A DNA stretch of 25,113 bases from a virus: positions 1-25,113 of IMG/VR virus record IMGVR_UViG_3300032241_002441; one strand, written 5' to 3'. Of this stretch, positions 7,214 through 20,479 are shown one piece after another. The position numbers were made by a program, and so were the translations under genes. The first letter of the stretch is position 1. Every line of letters begins with the position of its first letter. The notes under the pieces are model-generated. The model worked only from the letters and a program-made list of their open reading frames with translations. It did not search any database and was not told where the DNA came from.

Positions 7214-10200
7214 ATGAGTGAATATAGTATCCCAATGGAGTCTGTGGAAAAGTTTCTTTCTGGTCATGGTGAAGAGAAATATATTGTAAATATTGAATAT
7301 GAATCTGACACAAATACAATATATAAAATCAAAGATATACCAGAACAAGGGATTGTTATTGAGAAAGAATTCTTAAAATCTTTCATGTGGATTAAAAACC
7401 TTAATGAAGTTAAAAAGATTTGCAACTTTTATCATAACAACGATCTTACCATTAAAATCAAAATGAAGGAGTATGGTATTCAAATTAAAAAGCTAAGACA
7501 CGATGACCACCCAAGATTAGTGAATGGTTACACATATTTAGTTACATGTGAACAAGGACACAAAAGAATGCTATCATTTTTTGCTGATGGTGGTATAAAT
7601 TTCTACAACAAGTTCGAAAAGAGAATTAATTTAAAGGAATATTTTACAATATTATCCCCAATTGAACAGTATTTTATCAGTACTGGTAATCGTTTATATA
7701 AAGGTATTGAAGATTATAATGAGTTGACAAAACTTATTTTTGACTTGGAAACAACAGGTTTGGATCCAAATACAGAAAAAATATTTTTGATTGGTTGTAA
7801 AACTAATAAAGGGTATGAAAAATTGATTGAAATCGAAATAAACGACCCTGAATCTGAAAAAAATGGGATTATACAATTCTTCAATGAAATCGATGCAATA
7901 AAACCAACTATCATTGGTGGTTACAATAGTGCAAACTTTGACTGGTATTTCATATTCAAAAGATGTCAAATTCTTGGTATTGATATTGAAAATATCGCAA
8001 AGACTCTAAAAAAAGATAAACAAATATACGTTACTGAACAAATACTAAAACTTGGTAACGAGGTTGAAAGATATATCCAAACAAATATGTTCGGATATAG
8101 TATTATCGATATTAACCACTCAACCAGAAGAGCACAAGCTATTGATTCTGATATGAAATTTACCAGATTGAAATATGTTTGTAAATATAATGATGTTGCT
8201 AAATCAAATCGTGTATACATCGTTGGTGAAAATATTGGAAAATATTGGAAAAGCGACAAGAAATATTACTTTGATGATAAAAGTGGTTCATATTCTGAAA
8301 TTAAACCAAAAGTTGAGTATATGGATTTTATCACGAGACAGATTGTTAAAGATAATCCAGACAAAATATTTATTTTCGGTGATAATGATCTAAGAGAAGG
8401 TTTTGGTGGTCAGGCCAAAGAAATGAGAAACGAAAAAAACGCTATTGGTATTGTCACAAAAAAAGCGCCAAGTACAACTGATGATTGTTATTATAATGAT
8501 GATGAGTTCGAATTAAATAAAAAGAAAATAAATCTCGACCTAAAAATTATAATTAACGAAATAAAGAAAGGTAAATGTATTGTTATACCTTCTTCTGGTA
8601 TTGGTACAGGTTTAGCTAAATTACAGGAAAAAGCTCCAAAAACCTTCAAATTTTTACAAAATTCTTTAAACTTATTAAAGCTTTATTGTGATAGTTTTGT
8701 AGAATGTGATGGTAAATATATTGTTAACAGATACTTGATGGATGACCTTTGGGAAACACTCGAAGTTGATAATATTTACAATCAATCATCATTTATGTTG
8801 GCTAAATTAATACCAACAAGTTATCAAAGAGTATCTACAATGGGTACTGCTGGACTATGGAAAATGTTGATGTTAACATGGTCTTACGAAAATGATTTAG
8901 CAATTCCAATAAATGATGAAAAACGAGATTTCGTTGGTGGATTATCAAGACTGTTTAAAGTTGGTTTTTCTAAGAAATTAAGAAAGATGGACTATTCATC
9001 TCTTTATCCTTCTATACAGCTTGCACATGAGGTGTTCCCATCTTGTGATATAACACATGTAATGAAATCTTTACTTAAATATTTTCACTCTGAACGTTTT
9101 AAAGCAAAGAATCTCGCTAAGAAATACGGTAAAGCTGGTGATAAACAAATGAAAAGTTTTTATGACCGTAAACAATTACCTCTGAAAATATTCATCAACT
9201 CAATGTTCGGTGCCCTTGGAGCACCAACAGCATTTAACTGGGCTGAAATGGATGTTGCTGAAGGTATTACTGCGAGAGCAAGACAATACTTAAGGATAAT
9301 GGTTAAATTTTTTATGGCTAAAGGTTATGAACCATTAGTACTTGATACGGATGGTGTTAACTTTATGGCACCAGAATCTGGAGAGGAAAACTTTAGATAC
9401 ATTGGTCTGGGTAATAATGAAGCTGTTACTAAAGATAAAGAATACACAGGAGTTGATGCAGTGATTGCTGAATTTAATGATTTATTCATGAAAGGTGAAA
9501 TGGCATTAAGTTTGGATGGTACATGGCCGTCAACCATAAATCTTGCTCGTAAAAACTATGCCTTACTTGAAGATAGTGGTAAAGTAAAATTGACTGGTAA
9601 TAGCATCAAATCTAAAAAAATGCCAGCCTATATTGAAGAATTTTTGGATAAAGCCTTGGTTTTACTATTAAATGAAAAAGGTTCTGAATTTGTTAACTAC
9701 TACAATACCTACGTTCAAAAAATATATAATAAAGAAATTCCACTTTCAAAAATTGCAACAAAAGCAAGAGTTAAAAAAACTTTAGAAGATTATAAAAATC
9801 GTGAGCTTAACAAGAACGGTAAACCATTACCAAAGCAAGCTCATATGGAATTAGCCATAATCAATAAATTAAATATTAATCTTGGAGATACTTTATATTA
9901 CGTTAATAATGGTACAAAATTAACCCAAGGCGATATTCAAACAGTAAAAGTTACAAAAAAAGGTTGGTCAGAAAAAGATATAGAAGATCATATAACTCAT
10001 TATGGTAAATCACCAGTGGGTCTAACATCGATAAATAAATTAAATTGTTATATGTTAGATAGCAAAGAATTGGAAGATAAACCAGATATGTTAGGTGAGT
10101 ACAATGTAGCAAAATATTTGGATGCTTTTAACAAGAGAATCAAACCACTTTTAGTTGTATTTAGTGAAGATATTAGAGCTGGTTTATTATTGAAAAACCC

Positions 10201-10420
10201 TTCAGATAAAAAGGATTATTTAAAAAATGAGTTGAAGTTAATCAATGGTATACCATATAAAGAGGCTGACCAAGACACTATACAAGATTTATTTACACCA
10301 TCGGATCTTGAAAATGATTACTGGAAAAAAATGAATTATGATCCAAATTTCTGGTTTAACGATAAAATAAACTTTACTGTTCCAGGGTTAGATAGGGTGG
10401 TTGAGATAGAAAATATATAA
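7214..10420 (+). CDS. Family B DNA polymerase with inserted macro-like domain
   Basis: 1068 residues; T4 gp43 has about 900. The proofreading exonuclease has Exo I FDLETTGLDP (D177, E179), Exo II GGYNSANFDWY (D243) and Exo III RYLMDDLWE (Y507, D511). Polymerase motifs are A MDYSSLYPSI (D593), B KIFINSMFGALG (K658) and C LDTDG (D711, D713). The Exo II-Exo III spacing is about 268 residues, against about 105 in RB69/T4 polymerase, because a foreign-looking domain occupies about 370-485. Motifs A and B are only 65 residues apart (about 149 in RB69), so the palm-fingers region is compact. Motif C has Gly where DTDS is usual. This is the replicative polymerase by family inference. It sits alone behind a host-type promoter. 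Confidence 0.95.
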   Translation: MSEYSIPMESVEKFLSGHGEEKYIVNIEYESDTNTIYKIKDIPEQGIVIEKEFLKSFMWIKNLNEVKKICNFYHNNDLTIKIKMKEYGIQIKKLRHDDHPRLVNGYTYLVTCEQGHKRMLSFFADGGINFYNKFEKRINLKEYFTILSPIEQYFISTGNRLYKGIEDYNELTKLIFDLETTGLDPNTEKIFLIGCKTNKGYEKLIEIEINDPESEKNGIIQFFNEIDAIKPTIIGGYNSANFDWYFIFKRCQILGIDIENIAKTLKKDKQIYVTEQILKLGNEVERYIQTNMFGYSIIDINHSTRRAQAIDSDMKFTRLKYVCKYNDVAKSNRVYIVGENIGKYWKSDKKYYFDDKSGSYSEIKPKVEYMDFITRQIVKDNPDKIFIFGDNDLREGFGGQAKEMRNEKNAIGIVTKKAPSTTDDCYYNDDEFELNKKKINLDLKIIINEIKKGKCIVIPSSGIGTGLAKLQEKAPKTFKFLQNSLNLLKLYCDSFVECDGKYIVNRYLMDDLWETLEVDNIYNQSSFMLAKLIPTSYQRVSTMGTAGLWKMLMLTWSYENDLAIPINDEKRDFVGGLSRLFKVGFSKKLRKMDYSSLYPSIQLAHEVFPSCDITHVMKSLLKYFHSERFKAKNLAKKYGKAGDKQMKSFYDRKQLPLKIFINSMFGALGAPTAFNWAEMDVAEGITARARQYLRIMVKFFMAKGYEPLVLDTDGVNFMAPESGEENFRYIGLGNNEAVTKDKEYTGVDAVIAEFNDLFMKGEMALSLDGTWPSTINLARKNYALLEDSGKVKLTGNSIKSKKMPAYIEEFLDKALVLLLNEKGSEFVNYYNTYVQKIYNKEIPLSKIATKARVKKTLEDYKNRELNKNGKPLPKQAHMELAIINKLNINLGDTLYYVNNGTKLTQGDIQTVKVTKKGWSEKDIEDHITHYGKSPVGLTSINKLNCYMLDSKELEDKPDMLGEYNVAKYLDAFNKRIKPLLVVFSEDIRAGLLLKNPSDKKDYLKNELKLINGIPYKEADQDTIQDLFTPSDLENDYWKKMNYDPNFWFNDKINFTVPGLDRVVEIENI
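8321..8668 (+). other. Macro-like GDN/GGQA domain inserted in the polymerase
   Basis: Polymerase residues about 370-485. It begins at a Met (MDFITRQIVKDNPDKIFIFG), continues with FGDNDLREGFGGQAKEMR (from residue 388) and NAIGIVTKKAPS, and closes with IPSSGIGTGLAKLQEKAP (about 458-475). I recognise this GDN-x2-R-x-G-x-GGQA...GTGLA pattern from free-standing phage proteins. The glycine loops resemble ADP-ribose-binding macro domains, but that fold assignment is inference. It lies between Exo II and Exo III, after GSYSEIKPK and before GKYIVNRYLMDDLW. No intein splice residues flank it. Confidence 0.75.
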
Positions 10421-13417: not shown

Positions 13418-14644
13418 ATGAATACGTATAAAATATTAGTTGCACCTGGCGATAATGCTGGATCTGGTAAATATAGATGTGTAGATCCACATATTAAATT
13501 ACAAGAATTATTTCCGAATGATTTTTTCGTAGAAATAAATAATGCTGTTGATTTCAGTGATTTCACATATTTGAAACAATTCAGCGCTGTGTTTATACAC
13601 AGAGTGCCACAACACAATTATAAAGATGCTATCAACATCATTACCAATTTAAAAAAACTTGGCATAAAAGTTATTATTGATATTGATGACTATTGGCATC
13701 TTGACCCTTCTCACGGTTTGTATGAACAAGTGAAAAGAGAGGGTATTCCACAAATATCTATAAACTGTTTAAAATTAGCTGATTTGGTTGTTGTACCAAC
13801 AAGTATATTAGCTAACGAAGTTAAACAATTCAACCAGAATGTTGTTGTCTTAGCCAATGCTTTAGATCCAACAGAGGAACAATTCAAAAGTAAACCATCA
13901 GAAAGTGATAAATTAAGAATAGGTTGGTTAGGTGGTAGCTCCCATATTAAAGACTTAGAGTTAATCAAAGGTATATCATCAATTGGTGAATACAATAATA
14001 AATCACAAATTGTTTTATGTGGTTTTGACACAAGGGGTACTGTAAGAGAAATAGATCCGCAAACAGGTCAAGTTCAAGAAAGACAAATGAATCCAACAGA
14101 AACTGTTTGGTTCATGTACGAGTTATTCATGACAGATAATTATCGTATGTTAGAGTCATATCCTGATTATGTAAAATTCCTTGTACAATTTAAAGAGGAT
14201 AAATCTTTTGATGATTCCAATATGCCTTATAGAAGAGTTTGGACTAAATCTATCAATCAATATGCTAAGAACTATAATCTTTTTGATGTATCATTAGCAC
14301 CACTTGTAGATAATAAATTTAACTTATATAAATCTCAACTTAAAGTTATTGAAGCTGGATTCCATAAGAAAGCAATTATTGCTCAAAATTACGGCCCTTA
14401 TACTATCGATTTAGTAAGTGCAATAAAATCAGGTGGTGAAATAGACCCTAATGGTAATTGTTTACTCGTTGACCCATCTAAAAATCATAAACAGTGGCAA
14501 AAATATGTTAAGAAGTTAATCGATAACCCACAAATGGTTAAAGATCTTGGTGAAAAATTATATGAAACCGTAAAAGATAAATACGACCTTAATAATGTTA
14601 CTAAAACAAGAGGTGAAATATATTTAAATTTATTAAATAAATAA
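13418..14644 (+). CDS. GT-B glycosyltransferase, GT4-like
   Basis: 408 residues. The N-terminal Rossmann lobe begins YKILVAPGDNAGSGKYRCVDP and includes KVIIDIDDYWHLDPSH and an LADLVVVPTSILANEV segment (typical of GT4 lobe boundaries). The C-terminal lobe has LRIGWLGGSSHIKDLEL and the nucleotide-binding LKVIEAGFHKKAIIAQNYGP, equivalent to the GT4 K-x-E-A-x-A-x-G-x-P region. It is expected to transfer a nucleotide-activated sugar; acceptor and sugar unknown. It is the first gene after the terminator, and the 83-base gap before it holds AT-rich boxes (TATTACTA at 13395-13402) that might be a promoter. The next gene starts two bases after its stop. Confidence 0.85.
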   Translation: MNTYKILVAPGDNAGSGKYRCVDPHIKLQELFPNDFFVEINNAVDFSDFTYLKQFSAVFIHRVPQHNYKDAINIITNLKKLGIKVIIDIDDYWHLDPSHGLYEQVKREGIPQISINCLKLADLVVVPTSILANEVKQFNQNVVVLANALDPTEEQFKSKPSESDKLRIGWLGGSSHIKDLELIKGISSIGEYNNKSQIVLCGFDTRGTVREIDPQTGQVQERQMNPTETVWFMYELFMTDNYRMLESYPDYVKFLVQFKEDKSFDDSNMPYRRVWTKSINQYAKNYNLFDVSLAPLVDNKFNLYKSQLKVIEAGFHKKAIIAQNYGPYTIDLVSAIKSGGEIDPNGNCLLVDPSKNHKQWQKYVKKLIDNPQMVKDLGEKLYETVKDKYDLNNVTKTRGEIYLNLLNK

Positions 14645-15239: not shown

Positions 15240-15459
15240 TTTTTTAAACGCTTTAATTGAAAAAAGACCAGAATTAGAATTGAAAGTCAAAGAGTTCGAG
15301 CACCCATTGGATAAACAAAATAAATACTTTTCTTTGTATATTAATGGTATTGACTCAAGATTTATATTACCTGAAACTGAACTTAATATTGAAGACCCTG
15401 AACAAATTAATGAATTAGTTGACATAACTTTAATGTATATAAATAAAAATGGAAAATAG
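15232..15459 (+). CDS. Small acidic protein, unknown function
   Basis: 75 residues from ATG 15232 (MSNFLNALIEKRPELEL). A longer in-frame version starting at 15172 is possible, but it would overlap the HD gene by 68 bases with a low-quality N-terminus, so I prefer the later start, which overlaps by 8 bases. The protein is a small alpha/beta unit (YFSLYINGIDSRFILPETEL) with an acidic C-terminal helix. No motif is recognised. It overlaps the dUTPase start by 11 bases and is likely co-translated with it. Confidence 0.62.
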   Translation: MSNFLNALIEKRPELELKVKEFEHPLDKQNKYFSLYINGIDSRFILPETELNIEDPEQINELVDITLMYINKNGK

Positions 15460-16003
15460 TTTAAATGAGTTGAATATCTTAGACCAAGATATCAAAAAAA
15501 TACTTGAAAACGCAAATAATTTAGTTAAAGACTGGGTTTATGTTGACAATGTAATGAAACTTAAGATTAGATTTGTAAATCAGTCAACAAATCAGGATCC
15601 AGCTTACGCTAAACAAGGTGATAGCGGTTTTGATTTGAGAGCATTCTTAAAAGAAGATGCTGTTTTGAAGCCATTTCAAAGAGCTTTAGTACCAACTGGT
15701 TTGTATTTTCAAATCCCAGAAAACTTTGAGTTACAAGTTAGACCAAGAAGTGGTTTAGCTTTGAAAAATGGTATTACTGTATTAAATACTCCAGGTACAG
15801 TTGACTCTGGATATCGTGGTGAAATTTGTGTAATACTAATTAATCTTGGTTCTGAAGATTTCATAATCAAAAACGGTGATAGAATTGCTCAAGCTGTTAT
15901 TGCCCCAGTTCAAACAAATAATAACCTCGTATTTATGAAGTCTTCTTCGTTAGAATCAAGCGAAAGAGGTGATACAGGATTCGGAAGTAGCGGTGTCAAA
16001 TAA
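15449..16003 (+). CDS. dut: Trimeric dUTPase
   Basis: 184 residues with all five dUTPase motifs: 1 KQGDSGFDLRA (55-65), 2 RPRSGLA (98-104), 3 GTVDSGYRGEI (116-126; catalytic D119, Y122), 4 GDRIAQ (143-148) and 5 RGDTGFGSSG (173-182, the closing P-loop-like tail). It hydrolyses dUTP to dUMP and pyrophosphate, limiting uracil incorporation and feeding dTMP synthesis. An N-terminal extension of 35 acidic residues precedes MKLKIRFVNQ, where many dUTPases begin (ATG 15554); the longer start overlaps the upstream gene by 11 bases and is more consistent with local packing. The stop overlaps the next ATG (TAATG). Confidence 0.95.
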   Translation: MENSLNELNILDQDIKKILENANNLVKDWVYVDNVMKLKIRFVNQSTNQDPAYAKQGDSGFDLRAFLKEDAVLKPFQRALVPTGLYFQIPENFELQVRPRSGLALKNGITVLNTPGTVDSGYRGEICVILINLGSEDFIIKNGDRIAQAVIAPVQTNNNLVFMKSSSLESSERGDTGFGSSGVK

Positions 16004-16299
16004 TGGAATGTTTTAACCAACAAATAAGAGCGTATAAAGCCGTAACTGCTGATATATACGACCAAATAATGTATAAAAGAGTATGGTCTGGAGATATGAT
16101 TCAAGTTGGGGATAAAGTACTTTATGCATTTGTATTTGACCCAACAGACGATGCTCTGAAATTAATATCTGTGTTAGATAGAGAGTTGGGTTTGATTCAA
16201 AACACCTTTTCTTTTGTTGCTTTCAAAAATAAAATAATACCAGTTTTAAAATTTAAAACGGATGCAAAGAATAGGCAATATACAGAGCAAGAAGATTAG
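16003..16299 (+). CDS. Small protein, unknown function
   Basis: 98 residues. An N-terminal segment (MECFNQQIRAYKAVTADIYD) is followed by a beta-rich core (GDMIQVGDKVLYAFVFDPTD and NTFSFVAFKNKIIPVLKF). No catalytic motif or membrane segment is visible. It starts in a TAATG overlap with dUTPase and overlaps the next glycosyltransferase gene by 38 bases, so it belongs to the same transcription unit. No family recognised. Confidence 0.68.
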   Translation: MECFNQQIRAYKAVTADIYDQIMYKRVWSGDMIQVGDKVLYAFVFDPTDDALKLISVLDRELGLIQNTFSFVAFKNKIIPVLKFKTDAKNRQYTEQED

Positions 16300-16954
16300 T
16301 GTTGTTTTTTCTACCAGAGCTTTGGATGAAGAATATATTGATCATATAAAAATGACATCTGGCCTTGGGAATAAAATTGAGATTTTACCCTTTGTGAATA
16401 ATGGTGAAAAATCGTTAACACAAATATATAACGAAGGTTTAGAAAAAGCGAAAAATGATATTGTTGTTTTTTGTCATGATGATTTAATATTTCATACAGA
16501 AAATTGGGGAATGGCAATAGGTGACCATTTTACAAGGAATCCTGGATTCGGTATAATCGGTATAGCTGGAACTAATAAGTTAGTCAATGGAAGATGGTGG
16601 GAAATAAAAGAGAACATGCATGGTATTGTTAATCACTCAGATGGTAAAAAAATTTGGGTTAGCGAATATTCTAAACCACAAGGAATTACCCTCAAAAAAA
16701 TGATCACAATTGATGGTTTATTTTTTGCTGTACATAAAAATAGAATTAGATGTACTTTTGATGAAAATGTTAAGGGTTTCCATTTCTACGAATTAACGTT
16801 TTGTATGGACAATCATATTAATGGTGTTAAGATAGGATTATGTACAAATATACGTGTTACACACCTTTCAATTGGTGAAACTAACGACCTTTGGGAAGAA
16901 AATAAATTAGTATTCGAAGAAAAATATGGGCATTTATTACCATTAGAAGTATGA
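16262..16954 (+). CDS. GT-A glycosyltransferase, GT2/StrF-like
   Basis: 230 residues. After a short lead, KKISVVFSTRALDEEYI starts the Rossmann-like nucleotide-binding half. SLTQIYNEGLEKAKNDIVVF and CHDD (71-74), the metal-binding D-x-D equivalent, follow. Later come GIIGIAGTNKLVNGRWW, the MITIDGLFFAVHKN acceptor segment and a C-terminal RVTHLSIGE with the His typical of this fold. The layout resembles the StrF-like branch of GT2. Sugar and acceptor are unknown. The ATG at 16262 lies inside the preceding gene (38-base overlap) and I see no better start. The stop overlaps the next start as ATGA. Confidence 0.82.
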   Translation: MQRIGNIQSKKISVVFSTRALDEEYIDHIKMTSGLGNKIEILPFVNNGEKSLTQIYNEGLEKAKNDIVVFCHDDLIFHTENWGMAIGDHFTRNPGFGIIGIAGTNKLVNGRWWEIKENMHGIVNHSDGKKIWVSEYSKPQGITLKKMITIDGLFFAVHKNRIRCTFDENVKGFHFYELTFCMDNHINGVKIGLCTNIRVTHLSIGETNDLWEENKLVFEEKYGHLLPLEV

Positions 16955-17616
16955 TCAAGTCAATTAAAGAATTAAAAGATATCCATAGAGATGAAGATAT
17001 TTATGTAATCGGTGCTGGAGCAAGTGTTGATTATATTAATGAATCTTTTTTTGATGGTAAGATAACAATAGGTACAAATCAAGTTTATAAGAAAATTAAA
17101 TGTGATTATCTTGTTAGAAAAGAAACTAAATTTTTGAAACAAGCTTTGAATACTGGTTCAAAAGTTATTGTATCTGAATACGATAGCGGTAATCTTGATA
17201 CTGGGCAATTTAAATTAAACACCAATAAAATTGATCACGAAAACCTTTATTATTTTGAACATCTTGATAATCTACATGATAAGGTTGATACATCTGTTAT
17301 TGGAACAGATAAATTAGTTGTTAGTTATTCAACGATTACATCTGCGTTACATCTTGCTGCATATATGGGTGCATTCAATATTTACCTTGTTGGTCATGAT
17401 TGTGGTTCATTGAATGGTAAAATGACATTTGATAAATATTATGATTCAATCAACGATACACCATGGCAAAATTGGAACCAATATAAATCCTGGTTAAAAA
17501 TCATTGAGTCACAAACTGTTTCTGTTAGAAATAAACTTGTTGAAGTTTATGAATGTAATGTGGTGTCAATAAATCCTTTTGTTTCATTAAATTTAGAAAA
17601 CAACCTTTTCATGTAA
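16951..17616 (+). CDS. Sialyltransferase/DUF115-like putative glycosyltransferase
   Basis: 221 residues. The N-terminus DIYVIGAGASVDYINESFF with IGTNQVYKKIKCDYLV parallels the G-x-G-x-S-x...N-Q segment shared by GT42 (CST-type) sialyltransferases and DUF115/Maf proteins. VSYSTITSALHLAAYMGAFN followed by IYLVGHDCG parallels the second conserved block of those families. GT42 and Maf proteins transfer sialic, pseudaminic or legionaminic acid from CMP donors, so this is a good candidate transferase for the NeuB and cytidylyltransferase products encoded downstream. Family choice is not certain; the evidence is motif-level. It starts in an ATGA overlap. Confidence 0.62.
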   Translation: MIKSIKELKDIHRDEDIYVIGAGASVDYINESFFDGKITIGTNQVYKKIKCDYLVRKETKFLKQALNTGSKVIVSEYDSGNLDTGQFKLNTNKIDHENLYYFEHLDNLHDKVDTSVIGTDKLVVSYSTITSALHLAAYMGAFNIYLVGHDCGSLNGKMTFDKYYDSINDTPWQNWNQYKSWLKIIESQTVSVRNKLVEVYECNVVSINPFVSLNLENNLFM

Positions 17617-17617
17617 T

Positions 17618-18277
17618 ATGAGTTTTAAATTTATTATACCAGCCAGAAGAAATTCAAAAGGTTTACCATTTAAGAATCGTAGATTATTTGATATATTTTT
17701 AGATAAAACACCTGAAAATCTATTAACAGGATTAATTCCTTCTCATTCTTTGATTGTATCTACAGATGATGAATCAATCATTGAAAAATGTGTATCAAAA
17801 AGTATAAATTATCTTAATAGAGATAGTAATTTAGCTTTAGACACAACCTCAACTAAAGAAGTTATGATTGATTTATATAACAAGAATTACATTTTTAATG
17901 ATGATATTGTTGTTATGTTATATTTGACATATCCTGAAAGAAATTGGGATGATATAGGAAATGCTATCGATACTTTTATCAAAAATGGTTCAAGATCTCT
18001 TTTATGTAAAAAAGAAATTACAAGTACCCACCCATACCTTTACATGCTTGAAATCGATAAAAATAAAGGTAAACAACTTGTTGCACACGACCTTTATCGT
18101 AGACAAGATTATCCAAAGGTATTCGAAATTTCACACTATATTTGTATTTTTAAAGGTGGTGAATTAAAAAATTTGAATAACAATCTTTACAACGAGGATA
18201 CATTTTTTTTACCAATTAACTCTGTTATAGATGTTGATACGGAAAATGATTTATTAAAATATAATGGGGATTTATGA
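17618..18277 (+). CDS. CMP-sialic/nonulosonic acid synthetase-like cytidylyltransferase
   Basis: 219 residues. It has the nucleotide-binding IPARRNSKGLPFKN (7-20), equivalent to IPARGGSKGIPRKN, then VSTDDE (47-52), DTTSTKEVM (75-83), THPY, RRQDYP (161-166) and VIDVDTENDL (203-212) with metal-binding aspartates. This is the acylneuraminate cytidylyltransferase (NeuA) pattern: CTP plus a sialic-type acid gives CMP-sugar and pyrophosphate. The usual LQPTSP is replaced by YLTYPER, so the sugar specificity may be unusual. The downstream gene starts in an ATGA overlap. Together with the NeuB-like gene at 19637 it supports nonulosonic acid activation. Confidence 0.83.
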   Translation: MSFKFIIPARRNSKGLPFKNRRLFDIFLDKTPENLLTGLIPSHSLIVSTDDESIIEKCVSKSINYLNRDSNLALDTTSTKEVMIDLYNKNYIFNDDIVVMLYLTYPERNWDDIGNAIDTFIKNGSRSLLCKKEITSTHPYLYMLEIDKNKGKQLVAHDLYRRQDYPKVFEISHYICIFKGGELKNLNNNLYNEDTFFLPINSVIDVDTENDLLKYNGDL

Positions 18278-19029
18278 AATGTATATTAGGTATAACAACA
18301 TATAATAGGAGAAAATATTTAGAACATCTTTTAGATAGTTTTACACCAACTCATAACACAAATTATGAATGGGTAATCATTATCAATGATGACTGTTCAA
18401 CAGATGACACAGTTAAATTCATTGAAAACTATAATTTTCCATGTGAATATCATTTAATCAAAAATGAGAACAGAAAGGGTGTTTCATGGGGAACAAATAA
18501 TATTTTTGACTTATCTCAAAAGATTGGATTTGATGTTTTATTCAGAAGTGATGATGATAATTTTTTCTTGAATAATGGTTGGGATGATCTTTATATTAAT
18601 GCTATGAATAATTCTGGATTTAAACACCTAAGTTATTATAATAGTAGATGGAAAGGGGAAAATAAAAAAATAATAGAGAATGATGGTTTAATTGCCGCTT
18701 CTAATGTTATGGAATCTATGGGTAATTTCTACACAATAACACCTGAAATCTTAGAAAAAGTTGGTTACATGGATTATCAAAACATGGGTATGTGGGGTGT
18801 TGAACATATTGATTATTCATTAAGATGTTGTAGGTTCAATTATAACAATCCACAAACATTTTGGTGCCCAAAGGATTGTAACAAATTTATTGGTATGAAA
18901 GCTGGAAATACCTATACAAGCTCAATGAGTACAATTGAGTTAGCTAATGAAAGGAGCAGAGATTATCAAAAAAGAATGATAGCAAATAATAATAATAGAA
19001 TTTATATACCGAATCAGAATGCTCAATAA
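18274..19029 (+). CDS. GT2-family glycosyltransferase
   Basis: 251 residues. The GT-A signature is ITTYNR (7-12), VIIINDDCSTDDT (34-46) and LFRSDDDNFF (89-98), the latter carrying the D-x-D metal site. An acceptor-side MGMWGVEHIDYSLRCCRF follows. The C-terminus is Asn-rich and disordered. Expected to transfer a sugar from a nucleotide donor; acceptor unknown. It overlaps the cytidylyltransferase by 4 bases and the next glycosyltransferase by 11, placing it within the nonulosonic acid cluster. Confidence 0.88.
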   Translation: MKCILGITTYNRRKYLEHLLDSFTPTHNTNYEWVIIINDDCSTDDTVKFIENYNFPCEYHLIKNENRKGVSWGTNNIFDLSQKIGFDVLFRSDDDNFFLNNGWDDLYINAMNNSGFKHLSYYNSRWKGENKKIIENDGLIAASNVMESMGNFYTITPEILEKVGYMDYQNMGMWGVEHIDYSLRCCRFNYNNPQTFWCPKDCNKFIGMKAGNTYTSSMSTIELANERSRDYQKRMIANNNNRIYIPNQNAQ

Positions 19030-19633
19030 TTATTTTGAAAAAATATATTGTATAAACCTTGAAAAAAGAAAAGATAGGTGGAATGAGGTTAGTAAAGAAT
19101 TTCAAAAAATTAATTGCAATGTTGAAAAATTTGTAGCAATTGATGGTGAAAAATTGGAAGCCAGTGCATACATTTATAGAGGTGAACTTGGTTGTTACAT
19201 GTCACACATGGTAATCTTAAAAGACATGATTAATAATAACTATAGTAAAATTTTAGTTTTTGAGGATGATGTTGTTTTCAACGATGATTTTAACGCAAAA
19301 TTTGATTACTATTATAATCAATTACCTAATGATTGGGATATTGTTTATATGAGTGGAAATCATACAACAAGTTTAGAAAAAATTACTGATAACATATATA
19401 AAACTAATGGTACTTTAGCTATGCATAGTTATTTCATTAGCTTGGAAGGTGCAAAAAAATTATACAACTTATTAGTCGCTAAAAATATGACAGACCCAAT
19501 AGATGTTATAGGTATAGAGTATCAAAAAAATAATAATTGTTATACGTTTAGGCCACACCTTACGTATCAAAAAGAAGGATTTAGTGATATACAGAAAAAA
19601 GTTGTAAATTACGATCACCTATTAAAACGTTAA
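19019..19633 (+). CDS. GT25-family (LPS-type) glycosyltransferase
   Basis: 204 residues with the GT25 signature: IYCINLEKRKDRW (9-21), GELGCYMSH (55-63), ILVFEDDVVF (78-87, with the E-D-D metal motif) and GTLAMHSYFISLEGAKKL. GT25 enzymes add galactose or similar sugars to lipooligosaccharide or to protein-bound glycans. The 11-base overlap with its upstream gene and a three-base gap to the NeuB-like gene show co-transcription. Confidence 0.9.
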   Translation: MLNNYFEKIYCINLEKRKDRWNEVSKEFQKINCNVEKFVAIDGEKLEASAYIYRGELGCYMSHMVILKDMINNNYSKILVFEDDVVFNDDFNAKFDYYYNQLPNDWDIVYMSGNHTTSLEKITDNIYKTNGTLAMHSYFISLEGAKKLYNLLVAKNMTDPIDVIGIEYQKNNNCYTFRPHLTYQKEGFSDIQKKVVNYDHLLKR

Positions 19634-19636
19634 TAA

Positions 19637-20479
19637 ATGAATAAAGTAAAAATTATAGCCGAAATAGGCCTCAATCACAATGGGGATATAGATATCGCCA
19701 AACAACTTATAATGGTTGCTAAAGCTGCTGGTTGTGATTATGTTAAATTTCAAAAAAGAAATCCTGATGTTTGTGTACCTGAAGATCAAAAATCTAAAAT
19801 AAGGCAAACACCTTGGGGTGAGATGACCTATATTGATTATAGATGGAGAGTAGAGTTTAATCAAGAACAATATCAACAAATACATAATTTTTGTCAAAGT
19901 ATTGGAATTAAATGGTTCGCTTCAGTTTGGGACAAAGATTCGGTTGATTTTATACAAAAGATCAACTTGGATAATAACTACCATAGTATAATGAAAATAC
20001 CATCAGCTCTTATAACCGATACCGAATTATGCAAATACGCATCAACAAGATGTAATCAATTACTGATTTCTACAGGAATGAGCACTGAAGAAGAAATTGA
20101 AAATTGTGTACGTACTTGTAATCCAGATGTTATAATGCATACAAATTCAACTTATCCCTGTCCTGTTGAGGAATTAAACTTAAACTATATTTTATGGTTG
20201 AAGAATAAATATAGAGATAAAGAAATAGGGTATAGTGGCCATGAATATGGTTTAGTTACAACATTTGCAACAATACCTATGGGAGCTACTTGGATTGAAA
20301 GACACATAACGCTTGACCGTAATATGTGGGGTTCAGACCAATCATCATCAATCGAACCATCTGGTGTTTTTAAATTGGTTAAGGGTATAAGAGATATTGA
20401 AAAATCTTTGTCTTTTGCACCAAGTGAAAGATATGTATTAGGAGGAGAGTTGCAAAAAAAACAAACGCTTAGAAAATAA
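19637..20479 (+). CDS. NeuB-like sialic/nonulosonic acid synthase, SAF domain absent
   Basis: 280 residues forming a TIM-barrel synthase: IIAEIGLNHNG (6-16), DYVKFQKR (34-41), LLISTGMST (142-150), TYPCPVEE (172-179), GYSGHEYG (198-205), ERHITLDRNMWGSDQ (221-235). The metal-binding His pair H202 and H223 has the 21-residue spacing of meningococcal NeuB (H215/H236). The reaction is condensation of phosphoenolpyruvate with an N-acyl hexosamine to a nine-carbon nonulosonic acid. Typical NeuB is about 340-350 residues with a C-terminal antifreeze-like (SAF) domain; here the protein ends soon after the barrel. Exact product unknown. Co-transcribed with glycosyltransferases. Confidence 0.88.
   Translation: MNKVKIIAEIGLNHNGDIDIAKQLIMVAKAAGCDYVKFQKRNPDVCVPEDQKSKIRQTPWGEMTYIDYRWRVEFNQEQYQQIHNFCQSIGIKWFASVWDKDSVDFIQKINLDNNYHSIMKIPSALITDTELCKYASTRCNQLLISTGMSTEEEIENCVRTCNPDVIMHTNSTYPCPVEELNLNYILWLKNKYRDKEIGYSGHEYGLVTTFATIPMGATWIERHITLDRNMWGSDQSSSIEPSGVFKLVKGIRDIEKSLSFAPSERYVLGGELQKKQTLRK

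Follow-up and report, generated by a model that had tools for sequence, protein, structure and literature searches.

The family-B DNA polymerase encoded within a 25,113-nucleotide stretch of viral DNA (the window) carries a complete DUF7831 domain, built in frame into the loop that precedes its Exo III helix. That a whole domain sits in a loop of this polymerase had been proposed in an earlier note on the same DNA, and is borne out by a strong family match and by the shortness of the loop in relatives. By the tests made, the insert is DUF7831: Pfam PF25176 aligns over profile positions 2–117 of 118 at 148.1 bits against a curated cut-off of 27 (E 1.3e-43), and the window copy keeps all 13 residues that are invariant in a 63-member DUF7831 alignment, of which it is itself one member. 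The same position is matched by phrog_2072, of unknown function (PHROGs, E 1.9e-14). At the replication fork the domain may bind ADP-ribose or remove it, against DarT-like defence, an interpretation to which we give a probability of a little under 0.4. It is unusual for the proofreading module of a replicative polymerase to house a whole domain, and for a clade to keep it (this is our judgement and not the outcome of a survey). That phage DNA polymerases shuffle domains is known generally (PMC10684548); the open-licence PMC literature searched yielded no description of a DUF7831-type insertion in a polymerase, nor DUF7831 by name.

The enzyme is a family-B DNA polymerase by profile, fold and catalytic residues. 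DNA_pol_B scores 47.2 bits against a cut-off of 23, it and exonuclease-type Pfam families flank the DUF7831 match, and phrog_262 (DNA polymerase) matches at E 3.6e-47. The predicted model of the full polymerase (mean pLDDT 86.8) aligns with family-B polymerases at VIA-align Z scores of up to 26.2, with RB69 gp43 at 22.6. In exonuclease and polymerase residues and in overall fold it is like other phage family-B polymerases; what it has, and 71 of 87 relatives in a polymerase tree lack, is DUF7831. By motif name we take D177/E179 to be Exo I, N238–D243 to be Exo II and Y507–D511 to be Exo III. As the catalytic acids D177, E179, D243, D511, D593 and D711 are invariant across 48 aligned polymerase rows, and D713 is present in at least 90% of them, the polymerase looks active in both its exonuclease and its polymerase function. 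No intein or homing endonuclease was among the six Pfam families found in it at E ≤ 1.

Table 1. Features of the window, with coordinates counted from its first nucleotide.
Feature	Position	Strand	Basis
Gene for the 1068-aa family-B DNA polymerase, inserted domain included	7214..10420	+	Open frame; Pfam DNA_pol_B and DNA_pol_B_exo1 over cut-off; phrog_262; model against PolB structures
Exo I residues D177 and E179	7742..7750	+	Invariant, 48-row alignment
Exo II residues N238 to D243	7925..7942	+	N238, F242, D243 invariant, 48-row alignment
Inserted DUF7831 domain, residues 368–483	8315..8662	+	PF25176; phrog_2072; absent from 38/38 aligned insert-free relatives
First glycine-rich loop FGDN...GFGGQA, residues 388–401	8375..8416	+	F, G, D, N, G396, Q400 63/63 in DUF7831 alignment
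T415-K416, proposed counterpart of DarG T79-K80	8456..8461	+	T 63/63, K 61/63; hhalign onto DarG-like T-K
Second glycine loop PSSGIGTG, P459 to G466	8588..8611	+	G464, G466 63/63; P459 62/63; G462 60/63 (3 gaps)
Exo III residues Y507 to D511, just 3′ of insert	8732..8746	+	Y507, D510, D511 invariant; match Y-x-x-x-D of archaeal PolB
Polymerase active-site residues D593, D711, D713	8990..9352	+	D593, D711 invariant; D713 in at least 90% (48-row alignment)
Glycosyltransferase	13418-14641		
Glycosyltransferase	16262-16951		
MptE-like	16951-17613		Weak match
Cytidylyltransferase	17618-18274		
Glycosyltransferase	18274-19026		
NeuB family	19637-20476		E 5.5e-63

Alignment to archaeal PolB places the insertion directly before the Exo III helix. 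In the related phage polymerases, whose alignment the earlier note had suggested, the loop is short: from G358 to Y507 there are 30–50 residues in all 38 insert-free rows and 148–149 in all ten rows with the insert, and the net gain of about 116 residues is the size of a DUF7831 domain. The distance of 268 residues from Exo II D243 to Exo III D511, from which an insertion was originally deduced, is confirmed; the figure of about 105 with which it was compared is wrong, the spacing being 150–173 in 38/38 insert-free aligned relatives. Likewise, the block that had been set at 8321–8668 is real, with the domain spanning approximately 8315–8662 and so reaching slightly further at its start. The Met at which the block was said to begin (M370) varies between polymerases, its column in the ten insert rows reading M L M M M M I T M M. 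Because this Met is not conserved and no stop follows the domain, a separate internal protein starting from the Met at 8321 is unlikely. GC content (0.292 in the insert, 0.284 and 0.311 in the flanking parts of the polymerase) is uninformative.

A chance match or frameshift artefact is ruled out by the open frame, by the Pfam E value and by the finding that in 13/13 insert-bearing contigs tested the domain lies inside an open frame of 1034–1080 aa. That the segment is an ordinary part of the exonuclease fold, one of two outcomes named in advance as refuting an insertion, is also ruled out: it is absent from 71/87 tree tips, the insert-free rows have only the short linker, and it models as a separate domain. 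The other, presence in all homologous polymerases with no separate relatives, was not found either, given those 71 tips and the existence of separate DUF7831 genes.

The domain is present in 25 of the 115 polymerase loci examined (overlapping and near-identical contigs counted), 80 of these loci being the best 80 of 565 confirmed relatives. Insert-bearing alignment rows are 60–69% identical to the window polymerase, and polymerases without the block 38–58% at their best segment. In a FastTree phylogeny of 87 distinct polymerases of at least 850 aa, built with the insert columns left out, the 16 with the insert form a single clade (support 1.0) and 71 lack it. The whole clade retains the domain, a pattern such as one old insertion would give; support for the sister group is 0.49 only. 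In a tree of the domain itself (75 sequences, midpoint root) the 16 embedded copies fall in a 17-tip clade, supported at 0.659 by FastTree and by an IQ-TREE bootstrap of 100, that includes one copy (L105) from a giant protein. The fused form was not found in the phage-record collection searched: 114 records match when the whole polymerase is the query, and in all of them coverage at any one place stays below 80%. DUF7831 occurs once only in each of 13 insert-bearing contigs. A search that matched all 13 of these found no DUF7831 in 19 insert-free contigs, in a run that gave no match anywhere, its controls among them, and an ordinary Macro gene was found in none of 31 contigs (12 insert-bearing and 19 insert-free, with the short contig G009 left out); these absences are weak evidence because many of the contigs are fragments. 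NADAR was matched in 2/31 contigs at E ≤ 0.01, with one match, in an insert-free contig, over cut-off.

What kind of fold has been inserted? The structure prediction and fold search proposed in the earlier note gave a separate domain with a confident model (pLDDT 96.3 for the domain alone, from 63 sequences), the elements of which recur in the same order in the full-polymerase model. Its top four solved structures in VIA-align are all macrodomains, at modest scores: Poa1p (Z 6.2), Mtb DarG (6.0), Taq DarG (5.8) and human C6orf130/TARG1 (5.5), with 102–107 residues aligned at an rmsd of 3.4–3.9. After these come unrelated rows at Z 5.0 and below, with viral macrodomains at ranks 10 and 12. This ranking is suggestive, not proof, and values of 5.5–6.2 may reflect only a common arrangement. 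With Foldseek the domain model has no PDB match at E ≤ 0.001 (the best is a phosphatase, E 0.095), a search of PDB chain sequences gave chance-level matches only (best E 0.42), and Pfam Macro PF01661 matches 0/63 DUF7831 members at E ≤ 10. The macrodomain core is described as six-stranded (PMC5179494), whereas the DUF7831 model has four strands of at least three residues. Because of the four-stranded model and the lack of any Pfam Macro match DUF7831 is not filed as a macrodomain, and ‘macro-like’, the term of the earlier note, is kept here for a resemblance to a class outside which DUF7831 is set: the top four folds bear the term out, the modest Z scores and the Pfam result do not. It is supported but not proven that DUF7831 is a compact macro-like fold similar to the ALC1/TARG1/DarG class, having two loops rich in glycine and, where DarG has its catalytic T79-K80, a T-K pair.

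Profile comparison bears on the same question. The 63-member DUF7831 alignment includes four embedded copies, those with worn loops being left out. DarG-type proteins were picked in bacterial genomes by an N-F-P-T-K motif and length, and 20 of them, with more distant sequences, made up an ALC1/DarG-like profile of 32 rows (from 33 loci, one pair being duplicates). Against this profile DUF7831 scores 24.9 in hhalign, above 100/100 column shuffles (maximum 20.7). The unguided alignment sets the T-K pair of DUF7831 on that of DarG and carries on through the next helix, strand and glycine loop, so that the second glycine loop falls near the G-x-G-x-G loop of DarG-like macrodomains; the first glycine loop falls outside the confident local alignment. 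With the DarG-type rows alone the score is 20.8, reached by 0/60 shuffles, and with a first five-sequence DarG profile 20.3, reached by 1/40. The score against MacroD-type sequences is 13.7 (8/60 shuffles as high; 24 of 30 loci, the rest being too short) and against ten polymerase slices at most 19.7. In all macrodomain comparisons the HHalign probability is at most 17%, and it is at 17% that K416 is placed on K80 of DarG. In Taq DarG, T79, G117, G119 and G121 are among the ADP-ribose contacts, and K80 serves as the chief catalytic residue, the K80A mutant being inactive (PMC5179494). Another protein of this class, SCO6735, lacks that lysine and is reported to work nonetheless (PMC9411070). 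DarG, TARG1/C6orf130 and Poa1p are the nearest known counterparts in form, by fold match and, for the T-K pair and one glycine loop, by alignment to the DarG-like profile; the weak scores and the difference in strand number set DUF7831 apart. These differences, the lack of a Pfam Macro match and the low Foldseek and HHalign values would suit a domain that is not of macro type and handles another nucleotide or phosphate ligand. We think this distinctly improbable, given that macrodomains fill the first four VIA-align rows and that hhalign gives a signal with the ALC1/DarG-like set but none with MacroD.

With a macro-like fold, ADP-ribose handling by the embedded domain would fit what is known of one host defence. 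Single-stranded DNA is ADP-ribosylated by DarT-type enzymes, a modification that TARG1 and DarG undo (PMC5179494, PMC8501950). Mutations in phage DNA polymerases are stated to be able to overcome DarTG (PMC11481870, PMC11348598), one of the two papers adding that bypass is likely (PMC11481870). Macro domains are described as common in large phages (PMC9503650, PMC7824862). A macro-like domain fixed beside Exo III could meet DarT-modified single-stranded DNA, and would bind or remove ADP-ribose at the place where the polymerase meets such DNA. Bases that DarT-like host enzymes had ADP-ribosylated might in this way be cleared or tolerated by the phage polymerase, with the counter-defence (and, in the case of removal, DNA repair) carried in cis at the fork. 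The stricter version, in which the proofreading domain houses a DarG-like DNA de-ADP-ribosylating activity and the blocked enzyme also removes ADP-ribosylated bases, is by itself doubtful. If the domain does handle ADP-ribose, phage DNA synthesis would be tied directly to an ADP-ribosylation defence such as DarTG.

The position next to Exo III would also suit a sensor, in which ADP-ribose, NAD or a related defence signal would be bound by the domain and would tip the enzyme towards polymerisation or proofreading, with nothing removed from DNA. Some macrodomains act as sensors, and the sensing of NAD or ADP-ribose derivatives has been proposed for SLOG domains fused to a 3′-5′ exonuclease and to other DNA enzymes (PMC9503650). 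The phage SLOG–exonuclease fusions are similar to the present case in that an NAD/ADP-ribose-linked domain is joined to a DNA-processing enzyme; they differ in the domain, and in being described as fusions where the window has an insertion into a replicative polymerase (PMC9503650). Mere sensing has no need of the T-K pair, however, which is kept in 15/16 embedded copies, and we regard a sensor as unlikely.

The state of the embedded copies is mixed. Ten of the 16 retain every one of the 14 residues that are key in the separate family; L119 departs from them by G398A, and five have worn glycine loops (L123, L125, L127, L128 and L129, with K416R in addition in L125). Twelve pairs had enough changes for an estimate of dN/dS. 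In ten of them the value for the domain is 0.03–0.25, and in seven of these ten the remainder of the polymerase has a lower one; the ratios are rough because dS is high in many pairs. The comparison of the window with its 99% twin rests on three domain changes and is uninformative. On these ratios the embedded domain is under purifying selection and somewhat less tightly kept than the polymerase around it. A structural role is possible for the five copies because their glycine loops are worn. Extended to the clade, this would mean that the insertion was tolerated and then became part of the polymerase fold, with no ADP-ribose function. The five have kept the domain despite the wear, at a dN/dS of ~0.11–0.12 in two pairs of them; a spacer would not need the 14 residues that most copies preserve, and we hold such an origin of its retention to be rather improbable. 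For ADP-ribose handling, the clade offers a natural contrast, in which most embedded copies keep the proposed site and five wore it down. The domain tree groups the five worn copies (0.992) and the polymerase tree does not, placing L127 and L128 with L044, L122 and L126 (0.807); the conflict may be due to parallel decay, recombination or tree error.

Elsewhere in phages DUF7831, a family of unknown function, forms either a short gene of its own or a section of other giant proteins. As the earlier note had suspected of the block, it exists as a free-standing phage protein: the window copy matches 98/50,697 phage records, and among the 60 of these listed the annotated ones are ‘hypothetical protein’, with one ‘conserved domain protein’. 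Examples are gp282 of Caulobacter phage phiCbK (450 bp) and phiM9_155 of Sinorhizobium phage phiM9 (408 bp), both PF25176 and phrog_2072. They have the same domain as the window at near full length with all invariant residues kept, as a small separate gene where the window copy is built into a DNA polymerase. In phiCbK (L281, 157-4438) the gene is immediately downstream of rIIA and rIIB.

Relatives of the domain were sought by profile in viral contigs (the best 80 of 139 confirmed were kept) and in genome contigs (4). Of 93 loci fetched, 13 were polymerase loci and 5 repeated the same contigs; removing these, with no further thinning, left 75 non-polymerase DUF7831 loci. In 34 the domain is in a frame of <260 aa and in 41 in one of ≥600 aa, many of them cut by locus ends. 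Ten large DUF7831 proteins were scanned with Pfam and 5/10 had no other domain at E ≤ 0.001. A giant protein (L028) also has a cpYpsA SLOG domain (E 1.6e-26), a partner that speaks for ADP-ribose handling, and a large one (L097) an AAA_30 helicase-type domain (E 1.4e-27). Another giant protein (L046, 1-6366) combines DUF7831 with a virion RNA polymerase domain (E 9.7e-9) and is a second, unrelated polymerase-type carrier. In two Acidobacteria-type MAGs (L115:4908-9569 and L117:4926-8936) DUF7831 is followed by DUF488 in one long frame. L066 and L069 have NADAR and YspA-type SLOG matches that fall below Pfam cut-offs (E 0.055–0.17), and these were dropped as evidence. When viral proteins were searched by structure, nine matched at E ≤ 0.001. 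Six of the nine carry the name DUF7831, Tupanvirus, Hyperionvirus and Yasminevirus being among them; giant proteins from phages named ‘cr’ also occur. PADLOC matched no known defence family in the window copy; among other DUF7831 members it matched four families in one or two members (best E 0.0032).

The separate genes, and the giant proteins including the one with the virion RNA polymerase domain (L046), would be expected of an enzyme whose substrates are soluble ADP-ribose signals or ADP-ribosylated proteins (the polymerase itself perhaps among these), and which rides on the polymerase for dosage or location only. The best fold match points the same way, Poa1p being an ADP-ribose-1''-phosphate phosphatase. 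Against this, position is suggested to matter because the domain is fixed at one exonuclease loop throughout the clade, and in our estimate a passenger enzyme is rather improbable. Should the domain handle ADP-ribose, this would be the first function for DUF7831, a family whose members are encoded on their own in phages, lie within giant phage proteins or come from giant viruses.

The window has other genes of note. A protein encoded at 243-2360 matches terminase large subunit families in its N-terminal part (E 1.9e-18) and the phrog_62 DNA helicase in its C-terminal part (E 5.8e-92), and a dUTPase gene is at 15449-16000 (E 1e-27). From 16262 to 20476 there is a sugar cluster, unusual for a phage, which looks like one for sialic-type sugar synthesis (Table 1).
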